From an uncultured SAR86 cluster bacterium (GTDB lineage: Bacteria > Pseudomonadota > Gammaproteobacteria > Magnimaribacterales > AG-339-G14): a stretch of DNA of 48,704 nucleotides. The stretch spans positions 1-48,704 of the forward strand of contig CACOQX010000006.1 of the NCBI GenBank assembly GCA_902629465.1. The letters run 5' to 3'. The translations under genes and the position numbers were made by a program. Below the pieces are notes generated by a model, which was given only the letters and a program-made list of their open reading frames with translations, did no database searches and was not told the DNA's origin. Below are positions 2,874 through 16,473 of the stretch, piece after piece (position 1 is the stretch's first letter; every line of letters starts with the position of its first letter).

Positions 2874-3545
2874 ATGACCAACATTTTAGCTATTGAAACC
2901 TCTTCGGTTTATTGTTCAATTGGCTTAGCTAAAAATAAAGAAATATATATCGAGCATTCTCAGGAAGAAAATACTCACGGTAAAAATATTTTTGGTTTTA
3001 TCGATAACCTCCTTAAAAAATCTCAACTTGAAAAAGAAGACCTAGACTTCATTGCCTTGAGTGTCGGCCCAGGATCTTTTACAGGGTTAAGGGTAGGGTG
3101 TTCTGTAGCGCAAGGCCTTGCTTTTGGTTTGCAAAAGAAAATTTTACCTCTTTCTAGTCTTGTGATTTTAGCTCAAACTGTTTTTTTAGAACACAAAGCC
3201 AAAGAACTTTTTATTGTCAAAGAAGCACATATGAACGACTTATATGTTGGAAAATTTATAAGAACAAATAATGATGTAGCTCTTCCTTTAATTAACGATA
3301 CTGCTATTAAGAAAACAGAACTTTCTGATTTTATTTCTTCAGATAACAAGGAAGTCATCTGTAGCGATTGTCATGAGTTTTTTGACTACTTAATTAAACC
3401 TAGCCTATTAGAAACAAATAATCATGCAAAAGGTTTATTACACTTAGCCTGTAATCTCGATGATTTAGATACCAGATTGAAAAATCCTGAAGAGGTATAT
3501 CCTACTTATCTTTCAGGCACCGAACAATGGAAGAGAGTTAAATAA
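2874..3545 (+). CDS. tsaB: tRNA threonylcarbamoyladenosine biosynthesis protein TsaB
   Basis: ILAIETSS, GPGSFTGLRVG motifs. Confidence 0.93.
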   Translation: MTNILAIETSSVYCSIGLAKNKEIYIEHSQEENTHGKNIFGFIDNLLKKSQLEKEDLDFIALSVGPGSFTGLRVGCSVAQGLAFGLQKKILPLSSLVILAQTVFLEHKAKELFIVKEAHMNDLYVGKFIRTNNDVALPLINDTAIKKTELSDFISSDNKEVICSDCHEFFDYLIKPSLLETNNHAKGLLHLACNLDDLDTRLKNPEEVYPTYLSGTEQWKRVK

Positions 3546-11625: not shown

Positions 11626-12525
11626 ATGCAAATAAATTTCATGCGACCAAGGAAGATAGCATCAACGTTATCAATTTTATTAGTTGTCCTTTCAGTTTTT
11701 TCTCTTTCTTTTAAAGGATTGAATGCTGGATTGGATTTTACCGGCGGCACTTTGATTGAGATCAAGTTGTCACAATCAACCAATTTAGAAGAAATTAGAG
11801 AAGTGCTTGGTTCTAGAATAGAAGATGATTTTCAGGTCTCTTATTTTGGTTCAGAGCAAGATGTTCTGATTAAGATTCCAGGTGGTTCAGAAAATAATTT
11901 ATCGGATGAGATAGTTACTGCATTAAAAAATTCATTTCAGTTCGATTTAAGACGAAAAGATTTTATTGGCCCTCAAATAGGAGAAGAGTTAAGAGATCAA
12001 GGAGGTCTGGGAATACTAGCAGCTATGTTGGTAATGATGGTCTACATCATGTTTAGATTTCAATTCAAGTTTGCCATCGGTGCTCTCTTAGCTTTGATTC
12101 ATGACGTTTTGATTGTGTTAGGCTTTTTTTCGATATTTTATATTGGTTTTAATTTGACAGTCTTAGCAGCCATTCTCGCTGTAATTGGTTACTCTTTGAA
12201 CGATACAATCGTAGTATCAGATAGAATAAGAGAGAATTATAGAAAAAAAAGAAAGTCAGATAACGTTGATGTGATCAATAGATCTCTAAATCAGATGTTG
12301 GGAAGAACCTTGATTACTTCTTTGACAACTTTACTAGTTTTATTCGCACTTCTTATTTTGGGCGGTGATTTCATTCAAAATTTTGCGATTGCTTTGATTT
12401 GCGGCGTCATTGTTGGTACTTATTCATCAATTTATGTTCTTTGTAATAATTTGATATTAATGAATTTAAATTTTGAAGATCTCGCTATTAAAAAGAGCGA
12501 AACTTATGATGATGGCATGCCTTAA
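11626..12525 (+). CDS. secF: Protein translocase subunit SecF
   Basis: GLDFTGGTLIEI; GYSLNDTIVVSDRIREN. Confidence 0.97.
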   Translation: MQINFMRPRKIASTLSILLVVLSVFSLSFKGLNAGLDFTGGTLIEIKLSQSTNLEEIREVLGSRIEDDFQVSYFGSEQDVLIKIPGGSENNLSDEIVTALKNSFQFDLRRKDFIGPQIGEELRDQGGLGILAAMLVMMVYIMFRFQFKFAIGALLALIHDVLIVLGFFSIFYIGFNLTVLAAILAVIGYSLNDTIVVSDRIRENYRKKRKSDNVDVINRSLNQMLGRTLITSLTTLLVLFALLILGGDFIQNFAIALICGVIVGTYSSIYVLCNNLILMNLNFEDLAIKKSETYDDGMP

Positions 12526-12550
12526 AAAAAGGGAGGTCCGAAGACCTCCC
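12524..12550 (-). terminator. Rho-independent terminator gggaggtc-ttcg-gacctccc-ttttttt (minus strand); may also act on secF
   Basis: Perfect 8-bp stem, C(UUCG)G tetraloop, 7-T tail on the minus strand; the plus-strand tail is only ttt. Confidence 0.9.
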
Positions 12551-12558
12551 TTTGGGTT

Positions 12559-12651
12559 CTAAGACATAAGTAAAATCAATACAGTTGAGATTAAAAACAA
12601 TCCAATTATTGCGTCGATTTTACCAAGCTTTTGATGTCTTGCTTTATACAT
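12559..12651 (-). CDS. 30-aa single-transmembrane peptide, MYKARHQKLGKIDAIIGLFLISTVLILLMS
   Basis: ATG overlaps the stop of the upstream 55-aa ORF (ATGTATAA); hydrophobic segment IIGLFLISTVLILLM; directly followed by the terminator. Below the ORF-track length cutoff. Confidence 0.6.
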   Translation of the reverse strand: MYKARHQKLGKIDAIIGLFLISTVLILLMS

Positions 12652-12811
12652 CTCTGACACCACGATACCATTTAGGATAAACAGTAGTAGATGTCTTTCT
12701 GTTTTCAGAATCTATTGCATCATGCCTTATTCCACGGTAAATGCCTGAAGAAATAACTTTTTGTTCCTTCGCAACATTTTGTGGAGTTTGTTTGATACCT
12801 CTGTAGTACAT
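12644..12811 (-). CDS. 55-aa YRG-motif small protein (DUF4278-like), MYYRGIKQTPQNVAKEQKVISSGIYRGIRHDAIDSENRKTSTTVYPKWYRGVRDV
   Basis: SD ggagg 8 nt upstream of ATG; three YRG motifs; preceded by a glutamine-riboswitch-like leader. Below the ORF-track length cutoff. Confidence 0.75.
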   Translation of the reverse strand: MYYRGIKQTPQNVAKEQKVISSGIYRGIRHDAIDSENRKTSTTVYPKWYRGVRDV

Positions 12812-12872
12812 CGGTTTGACCTCCAGTTTTCGTTTCGATTTCGTACATACGCTTCCCAGCGTACACCCTTCT

Positions 12873-13003
12873 CAACGCGTTCCTTCGGTAAAACTTTCGG
12901 TCTCTTTCCCCTTACGGGTACTTGCTTACCTATCTTTTCAGATAGAGGTTTTCAGGTTTTCCTACTTCCGTTCAATGCACTAAAAAAGGGCACTGAATGA
13001 ACG
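12873..13003 (-). ncRNA. Glutamine riboswitch candidate (glnA / Downstream-peptide RNA class)
   Basis: Minus strand: CGTTCA...GAACGGAAGTAGG...ACCGAAGGAACGCG; P1 cguuc/ggaacg; P3 ggaaaac/guuuu(a)cc; precedes a small-peptide ORF. Confidence 0.78.
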
Positions 13004-13013
13004 ATTTAAGTGC

Positions 13014-13043
13014 ATTTTATCAAAAAAAGCAGAAGTTTGTAAA
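13014..13043 (-). promoter_or_regulatory. Sigma70-like promoter for the riboswitch transcript
   Basis: Minus strand TTTACA-N18-TAAAAT; predicted TSS about 13007, a few nt before the aptamer 5' end. Confidence 0.6.
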
Positions 13044-14897: not shown

Positions 14898-15254
14898 ATG
14901 AAACTTTTAACAATAGTCGTTAAGCCGTCCAGATCCGATGGGGTAAGGCGTGCTTTATCAACCATTGGTACAGGTGGAGCTACAATCATTTCTGCTCAAG
15001 GTTTTGGAACCCAAAAAGGACATTCTGAAACTTATCGTGGTGCTAGTTATGAAGTAGATACAAAACCTAAAACGATGTTTCAAGTAGCTTGTAAAGACGA
15101 TGACGTCGAAAACATCATCCGAGCCGTGCGAGAAGTTGCAAATACCGGTGAGATAGGTGATGGCAAGATTTTTGTAACAGAACTTAACGATGTCGTTCGC
15201 ATCAGAACAGGTGAAACTGGTGAGGACGCTATAAAGGAGAATAGCAATGAGTGA
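14898..15254 (+). CDS. P-II family nitrogen regulatory protein
   Basis: PII fold with T-loop GFGTQKGHSETYRGASYEVDTKPKTMF and GEIGDGKIFV; upstream of amtB. Confidence 0.94.
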   Translation: MKLLTIVVKPSRSDGVRRALSTIGTGGATIISAQGFGTQKGHSETYRGASYEVDTKPKTMFQVACKDDDVENIIRAVREVANTGEIGDGKIFVTELNDVVRIRTGETGEDAIKENSNE

Positions 15255-16473
15255 ATTAGAGTATGCTTTGAATACTTTTTATTTATTAATCTCTGGAGCC
15301 TTCGTAATGTGGATGGCTGCAGGATTTACCATGTTAGAAGCCGGTTTAGTTAGATCTAAAAATGTATCAGAAATTGTTACAAAAAACTTAGGTCTTTACT
15401 CTATCGCATGTGTCATGTACCTAGTATGTGGTTTCTTTTTAATGTACCCAGGTGATAGCGTGTACAACGCATACTTCCCAATGATAGGAAGTACTTGGGG
15501 TATTTCTTTAGGAGGCTTAACTTTCAATACCGATTTGGGTTATTCAGATGCTGCTGACTTTTTCTTTCAGGTAGTTTTCGTTGCGACAGCAATGTCAATT
15601 ATTTCTGGAGCAGTTGCAGAGAGAATGAAGTTAATTCCGTTTTTCTTATTCGCCATAGTTTTAACGGGCTTTATCTACCCAGTTCAAGGTTACTGGAAAT
15701 GGGGTGGCGGTTGGTTAGACGCTATTGGTTATTCTGATTTCGCAGGATCGGGTGTTGTTCACTTATGCGGTGCAGCTGCTGCTCTTGCTGCGGTAATTAT
15801 TCTTGGCCCAAGAACTGGAAAATACGGTTCCGATGGATCCGTTAAAGTTATGAGAGGTTCAAATATTCCAATCGCAGCCTTAGGTGCACTAATCCTTTGG
15901 TTAGGTTGGTTTGGTTTCAATGGTGGTTCTCAATTAGCTGTCAACGACGCTGCAAATGCAAATGCTGTTGCTCAAGTCTTTTTAAACACAAATGCTGCTG
16001 CTGCAGGCGGTGTAATAGGCGCATTGCTAATAGCAAAAGTTTTAACTGGTAAGGCTGATGTAACAATGGCCATTAACGGCGCCATTGCGGGTTTGGTTGC
16101 CATTACAGCAGCACCAGACACTCCTTCAGGCGGATTAGCTACAATCATCGGGTTTATCGGTGGAATAATCGTCTACCTCTCAGTAGTCTTCTTAGACACA
16201 GTTCTTAAAATAGACGACCCTGTAGGTGCAATTTCTGCTCACGGTACAGTTGGTATTTGGGGAATCATGGCGACACCTCTATCCGGTGCTGGAGCATTTG
16301 GTACTCAAGCAATTGGAGCTATTTCGATTTTCCTTTGGGCTTTCATCTGTACTGCAGGCACTTTACTAGTGCTAAATGCAATTGTAGGCATAAGACCTTC
16401 AGAGGAAGAAGAAACTTCAGGACTAGACGCTTCAGAAATTGGAGTGGAGGCTTATCCTGAATTTGCAGATTAA
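15247..16473 (+). CDS. amtB: Ammonium transporter
   Basis: AGFTMLEAGLVRSKN; GSGVVHLCGAAAALAA; LGWFGFNGGS; GAISAHGTVGIWG. Confidence 0.96.
   Translation: MSELEYALNTFYLLISGAFVMWMAAGFTMLEAGLVRSKNVSEIVTKNLGLYSIACVMYLVCGFFLMYPGDSVYNAYFPMIGSTWGISLGGLTFNTDLGYSDAADFFFQVVFVATAMSIISGAVAERMKLIPFFLFAIVLTGFIYPVQGYWKWGGGWLDAIGYSDFAGSGVVHLCGAAAALAAVIILGPRTGKYGSDGSVKVMRGSNIPIAALGALILWLGWFGFNGGSQLAVNDAANANAVAQVFLNTNAAAAGGVIGALLIAKVLTGKADVTMAINGAIAGLVAITAAPDTPSGGLATIIGFIGGIIVYLSVVFLDTVLKIDDPVGAISAHGTVGIWGIMATPLSGAGAFGTQAIGAISIFLWAFICTAGTLLVLNAIVGIRPSEEEETSGLDASEIGVEAYPEFAD

Follow-up and report, generated by a model that had tools for sequence, protein, structure and literature searches.

A glutamine-I riboswitch with a nested P3 domain ahead of a small YRG protein in SAR86 bacteria and T4-like phages: a probable nitrogen-control cassette

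The minus strand just past suhB in an uncultured SAR86 cluster bacterium raises the question of what kind of RNA leads a short transcript there, what its two very small reading frames encode and what the whole does for the cell. The window (the entire stretch of DNA that was analysed, 48,704 nucleotides) carries at 12524–13043 a promoter, a structured leader, a GGAGG sequence, a 55-codon ORF, an overlapping 30-codon ORF and a UUCG hairpin followed by seven T residues. These elements had been proposed by a first-pass annotation of the same DNA and all of them are present in the sequence. The features are as follows.

13014..13043, minus strand: sigma-70-like promoter TTTACA-N18-TAAAAT (−35 at 13043–13038, −10 at 13019–13014), from the sequence, a pattern scan and relatives.
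12820..13005, minus strand: extended glutamine-I riboswitch leader from P1 to the Shine-Dalgarno sequence (model R1, 206.7 bits).
12874..13005, minus strand: RF01739 glutamine aptamer core, consisting of P1, P2 and the loop-E core ACGGAAGUAGG / CCGAAGG (cmscan).
13003–12999 with 12882–12878, minus strand: aptamer helix P1.
12889..12960, minus strand: nested domain within P3, from alignments; no Rfam match.
12820..12877, minus strand: 3′ domain of helices P5 and P6 followed by the constant ACUGGAGG; presumed expression platform.
12824–12820, minus strand: Shine-Dalgarno sequence GGAGG, at the end of the 3′ domain.
12644..12811, minus strand: ORF1, a 55-aa basic protein with three YRG motifs, borderline divergent member of DUF4278.
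12559..12651, minus strand: ORF2, a 30-aa peptide with a single membrane span, overlapping the ORF1 stop by 8 nt (ATGTATAA).
12524..12550, minus strand: intrinsic terminator GGGAGGTC-TTCG-GACCTCCC-T7 with an 8-bp stem and a UUCG loop, read directly.
14898..16473, plus strand: glnK-type PII gene and amtB gene of the marine subtype, probably the functional setting.

The promoter, as read in the sequence, lies 5 bases past the suhB stop. A scan for TTTACA-N18-TAAAAT found one copy compared with 1.8 in shuffled sequences, and the pattern alone is thus not above chance; the −35/−10 pair followed by TGCAC is kept in most of the relatives shown. The hairpin at 12550–12524 was not reported by a consensus terminator scanner.

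Positions 13005–12874 match the glutamine-I riboswitch (glnA RNA, RF01739) by cmscan with 42.2 bits against a gathering threshold of 35, and with an E value of 6e-6 over the window and 9.3e-8 over the local stretch. The first-pass annotation had assigned the leader to the glnA and Downstream-peptide RNAs together. The covariance-model match bears out the first of these; the second, glutamine-II or RF01704, also places a glutamine RNA before a short ORF in marine picocyanobacteria, but the SAR86 leader has no match to it up to E = 10 in an Rfam scan of the local stretch, and glnA/type 1 alone fits. With RF01739 the leader shares the P1–P2–P3 junction, the ACGGAAGUAGG/CCGAAGGAACG core, a score above gathering and a nitrogen context. 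The glutamine-I core is invariant in alignment A2; helix P1 is invariant too, and P2 and P3 covary. By every computable test the leader belongs to the glutamine-I class, here in a host lineage new to it, and we infer that it binds L-glutamine. A review (PMC6316151) calls these riboswitches restricted to cyanobacteria, whereas the host here is a gammaproteobacterium.

The leader exceeds the known aptamer: ∼70 nt separate the two parts of the loop-E core (ACGGAAGUAGG ... CCGAAGGAACG) and form a nested three-way domain within P3; the second loop-E-like motif of this domain and a conserved P5/P6 3′ domain are likewise additions to RF01739. The nested domain comprises the P3 stem AAAAC/GUUUU, an invariant GAAAACCUC, a hairpin and AGC-AGUA ... 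GAAC-GAGACCGA, of which AGUA/GAA forms the loop-E-like motif, and is matched by no Rfam family. The P3 stem is AAAAC:GUUUU in the clade of the window instead of AGAUA:UAUCU. When 27 host leaders are aligned, 96.7% of cells are paired under the proposed structure, 14 pairs have changed at both positions, and the covariation score reaches 0.262, compared with 0.121 ± 0.008 for shuffled alignments and 0.056 or less when the structure is slid. When 56 distinct host and phage core inserts were compared, 54 carried the nested domain, and in all 54 of these GAAAACCUC, GG, AGC, AGUA, GAA and GAGACCGA occur without exception; the base after GAA is C in 53, the lone exception being the window itself, with A (GAAA for GAAC). 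Among 92 distinct inserts, 20 carry an additional U in one strand of the second helix, and those 20 alone carry an additional A in the other strand; we therefore regard the two insertions as a compensating pair; neither an unpaired U nor an unpaired A was inserted singly in any of the 92. The nested domain is a strongly conserved and concrete RNA structure without an Rfam match, and it stands where other SAR86 genera have tandem canonical aptamers before the YRG gene. The P5 and P6 helices, which precede the constant ACUGGAGG, appear by eye to be kept between host and phage leaders despite sequence change. The invariant CCUC of the nested domain is complementary to the Shine-Dalgarno sequence; its predicted partners differ between species, and sequestration by CCUC is therefore no more than a hypothesis.

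Homologues of the YRG peptide are present in 27 of the 61 genomes searched, counting the window's own, and at all 27 loci an RF01739 aptamer above gathering (35.3 to 45.8 bits) lies directly upstream. In the scan of the genome collection the peptide-bearing genomes are almost all SAR86 cluster bacteria; a contig filed under a Flavobacteriales MAG (L103) also carries the nested-domain riboswitch and the YRG peptide and is possibly a mis-binned phage contig. The length of the insertion keeps the RF01739 profile from detecting the insert form in several genomes, and a covariance model spanning the entire leader (R1, 191 positions) was therefore built. R1 matches 59 of 200 genomes of the order, in 12 of 22 genera and four families; full-length insert forms have E values below 1e-40 (families f1, f2 and f3), and the weaker, short R1 matches are canonical aptamers. 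Outside the order no credible copy was found in the other gammaproteobacteria searched, a match in G539 being rejected as high-GC sequence that reads as coding. With RF01739 itself, scores above the cut-off came from 41 of 81 genomes within the order; of 369 genomes sampled from the class, one that is not SAR86 had such a score, and of 399 sampled from the phylum, none. The single non-SAR86 genome, a 1.1-Mb gammaproteobacterial one (G483), contains two such aptamers (L207 and L210). A candidate second copy in the window's own genome (G000:C7, 15.9 bits) was not confirmed by cmscan.

The three YRG motifs of ORF1 are invariant in its relatives save for one substitution in one member. Pfam DUF4278 (PF14105) is matched by 14 of 15 members of the family, with scores of 26.4 for a same-genus orthologue (the best), 25.3 for another member and 16.7 for the window protein against a gathering threshold of 25.3; by sequence similarity the protein is thus a borderline, divergent DUF4278 member. 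It has a pI of about 10. PDB sequence searches with the peptide gave no match, and its AlphaFold model (mean pLDDT 65.9, pTM 0.20) shows only local hairpins at the YRG motifs. ORF2 is missing from most SAR86 and is present in the five-genome subclade of the window and in T4-like phages, which also carry ORF1. Both ORFs are under purifying selection, with host–phage dN/dS values of ∼0.25 for ORF1 and ∼0.16 for ORF2, and dS exceeds dN between L003 and L118 in the ORF2 frame alone. The earlier proposal of two real peptide frames conserved with their leader among relatives is therefore upheld as regards selection, and as regards conservation for the leader and the YRG peptide; the second peptide is real and confined to the window's subclade and phages. 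The main reading of the first-pass annotation stands. It had not noticed the domain nested in P3, the relation to DUF4278, the copies in phages, the broader set of SAR86 riboswitches or the glnK–amtB neighbourhood.

The glnK–amtB genes are ∼2 kb from the window's cassette. In three of the family's four genera (g1, g3 and g4) no more than ∼2.5 kb separates the cassette from glnK–amtB, and the arrangement differs among the three; amtB does not lie close to it in the regions inspected from g2 and from other families. Canonical glutamine riboswitches, commonly as tandem copies and as triplicates in two genomes, are present in other SAR86 genomes, where they precede glutamine synthetase (GlnII), gltB, an outer-membrane protein followed by amtB, or unrelated small ORFs. 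In genera g7 and g11 glutamine synthetase is immediately preceded by a single aptamer or by tandem aptamers (L212–L216 and L228), and in g3 a single one precedes gltB (L073, L074 and L217). Genus g11 also has triple tandem aptamers before the outer-membrane protein and amtB (L065 1903–2078 and L066 1959–2133) and a double aptamer upstream of a TonB-receptor-like gene (L227). The small ORFs unrelated to YRG, of 46 aa ending NPFYP, 54 aa ending FFPYYL, 71 aa and ∼43 aa, follow tandem aptamers at L067–L072, L220–L223 and L075–L076 (single in L223).

Searches that find GlnE and GlnD in E. coli found GlnE in none of the 61 genomes of the order (G000–G060) and GlnD in none of the 37 genomes of the window's family. 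By family, GlnD was not found in f1 and f4 and was found in f2 and most of f3. Single absences are limited by incomplete genomes, and the pattern over 37 genomes is consistent. The glutamine synthetase of the window's own genome is GlnII-like, with 354.6 bits to the GlnII model, below the strict cut-off. One SAR86-family genome has a 474-aa GS-type ORF beside a short GlnII-like one (G036:C8 73582–75680).

We consider it probable that the locus is a glutamine-responsive nitrogen-control cassette of SAR86, with an ON riboswitch, a YRG protein that damps assimilation, a role as a stand-in for GlnD and GlnE, and a copy exchanged with phages. Glutamine binding would stabilize the aptamer and open the Shine-Dalgarno region, as in cyanobacterial gifB, and the leader would thereby control translation of the 55-aa YRG/DUF4278-like protein and of the coupled 30-aa membrane peptide. 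Control is probably translational, since no terminator-like U-run is apparent within the leader. The ON direction is drawn from analogy, because the predicted folds show no consistent sequestration of the Shine-Dalgarno sequence. With plentiful glutamine the YRG protein would be made and nitrogen assimilation damped, presumably because the protein binds some part of the PII, AmtB or glutamine synthetase machinery, and in the window's SAR86 family the cassette would take the place of the missing GlnD/GlnE glutamine-sensing cascade. More tentatively, the leader may have two inputs. The nested domain, which accompanies the YRG gene in all 121 assessable phage contigs and all 27 host loci, would then either hold a second ligand site of the same three-way, loop-E design or be bound by the basic YRG protein in an autoregulatory loop, and the protein itself would be a PII-T-loop-like effector that replaces GlnD signalling.

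The closest known arrangement is that of Synechocystis gifB, in which a glutamine riboswitch likewise precedes a small DUF4278 protein, IF17. DUF4278 is the N-terminal part of cyanobacterial IF17 (PMC6316151), and according to that review the IF17 gene is under an activating glutamine riboswitch in Synechocystis and DUF4278 genes are tied to glutamine riboswitches. The YRG protein could then be a GS-inactivating factor like IF17/IF7 that inhibits SAR86 glutamine synthetase directly at high glutamine; the DUF4278 similarity, the riboswitch logic shared with gifB (PMC6316151) and the small size and basic pI all fit. We nevertheless think this unlikely. DUF4278 is the dispensable part of IF17 (PMC6316151) and the sole Pfam match of the 55-aa SAR86 protein, in which the C-terminal, GS-acting IF7-like part is absent; the enzyme inhibited by IF17 is of type I, in contrast to the GlnII-like SAR86 enzyme; and glutamine synthetase is itself behind a glutamine riboswitch in genera g7 and g11. 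The second membrane peptide is a further difference from gifB.

Another account, to which we give similarly little credence, is that YRG imitates the T-loop of PII (GHSETYRGASYEVD in the window's PII) and that the protein blocks AmtB or competes for PII partners, replacing GlnD-controlled GlnK. The sole YRG among the 41 window ORFs of at least 100 aa is that of the PII T-loop, where ∼0.008 would be expected in a protein of that size, although the three-residue match was picked post hoc and about one YRG is expected by composition among the window ORFs. Divergent ORF1 members read YRGVSY, YRGISY and YRGIKY, the family lacks a detectable GlnD and the cassette is near glnK–amtB at three different positions in g1, g3 and g4; against this, it is not near amtB in g2, and the AlphaFold model is of low confidence.

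Marine T4-like phages have close copies of the entire cassette. The leader is present at all 60 viral-contig loci found by the peptide in IMG/VR. A DNA pattern derived from the nested domain alone and run on IMG/VR gave 104 and 45 contigs; among the 125 readable matches, all 121 that are not truncated at the edge of a contig are flanked by the glutamine core and followed by a YRG peptide. The converse linkage is loose, as SAR86 genera g14 and g15 have the YRG peptide behind tandem canonical aptamers with no nested domain, and some phages have a plain aptamer. T4-like hallmark genes lie beside two of the phage cassettes, namely a UvsW-like helicase and a late sigma factor in L118 and a gp23-type major head protein and a scaffold protein in L128. 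Downstream of the L118 cassette, on the opposite strand, another ORF (3285–3440) encodes 51 aa that probably include a membrane span. The window ORF1 has 80–84% amino-acid identity over its full length to phages L105, L108, L110 and L118, compared with 40–43% to same-locus orthologues in its own genus, and trees join the window clade with the phages with support of 100/99 for the peptide and 97/91 for the leader. The simplest reading of these comparisons is that the window's cassette has been exchanged between phage and host, in either direction. INPHARED isolate phages contain no match to the window peptide or leader.

Given the many phage copies and the clustering of the window's cassette with them, the element might mainly be a phage takeover device that SAR86 has captured and that regulates nothing in the bacterium; its occurrence across several SAR86 families, its fixed locus across the genus and purifying selection among hosts make this improbable. 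A chance juxtaposition of an aptamer-like leader with spurious small ORFs, which are common and here follow a promoter pattern that is not above chance by itself, is rejected as having a negligible likelihood because of conservation among relatives and phages and covariation, together with the RF01739 match and the dN/dS values.

Related RNAs are known from phages. The Melnitz and Mosig glutamine riboswitches (PMC9004378) are, as here, RF01739-type RNAs in marine phages, but the Melnitz RNA sits at ssrA, unlike the SAR86 cassette. Cyanophage S-H34 has an RF01739 aptamer with a YRG peptide downstream; its P3, however, holds a different insert, and the invariant nested domain is not seen. The S-H34 P3 (L229 1367–1457) seemingly contains half of a second glutamine aptamer, which is possibly a hint at how nested domains arise.

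Riboswitches of the glnA type before PII, glutamine synthetase and ammonium transporter genes were previously known only from environmental sequences whose hosts were unknown (PMC2864571, PMC6316151); SAR86, an abundant ocean heterotroph, is one host for them. The function of the nested domain is directly testable. If the two-input reading is true, the leader would be a one-piece gate with one sensor inserted inside another, and the YRG effector would replace GlnD signalling in bacteria and in their phages. The nitrogen-control cassette suggests how SAR86 can sense glutamine without GlnD or GlnE, so that a bacterium without the customary glutamine sensors may keep track of its nitrogen supply by this means, and the sharing of the cassette with phages links the nitrogen status of the host to T4-like infection.
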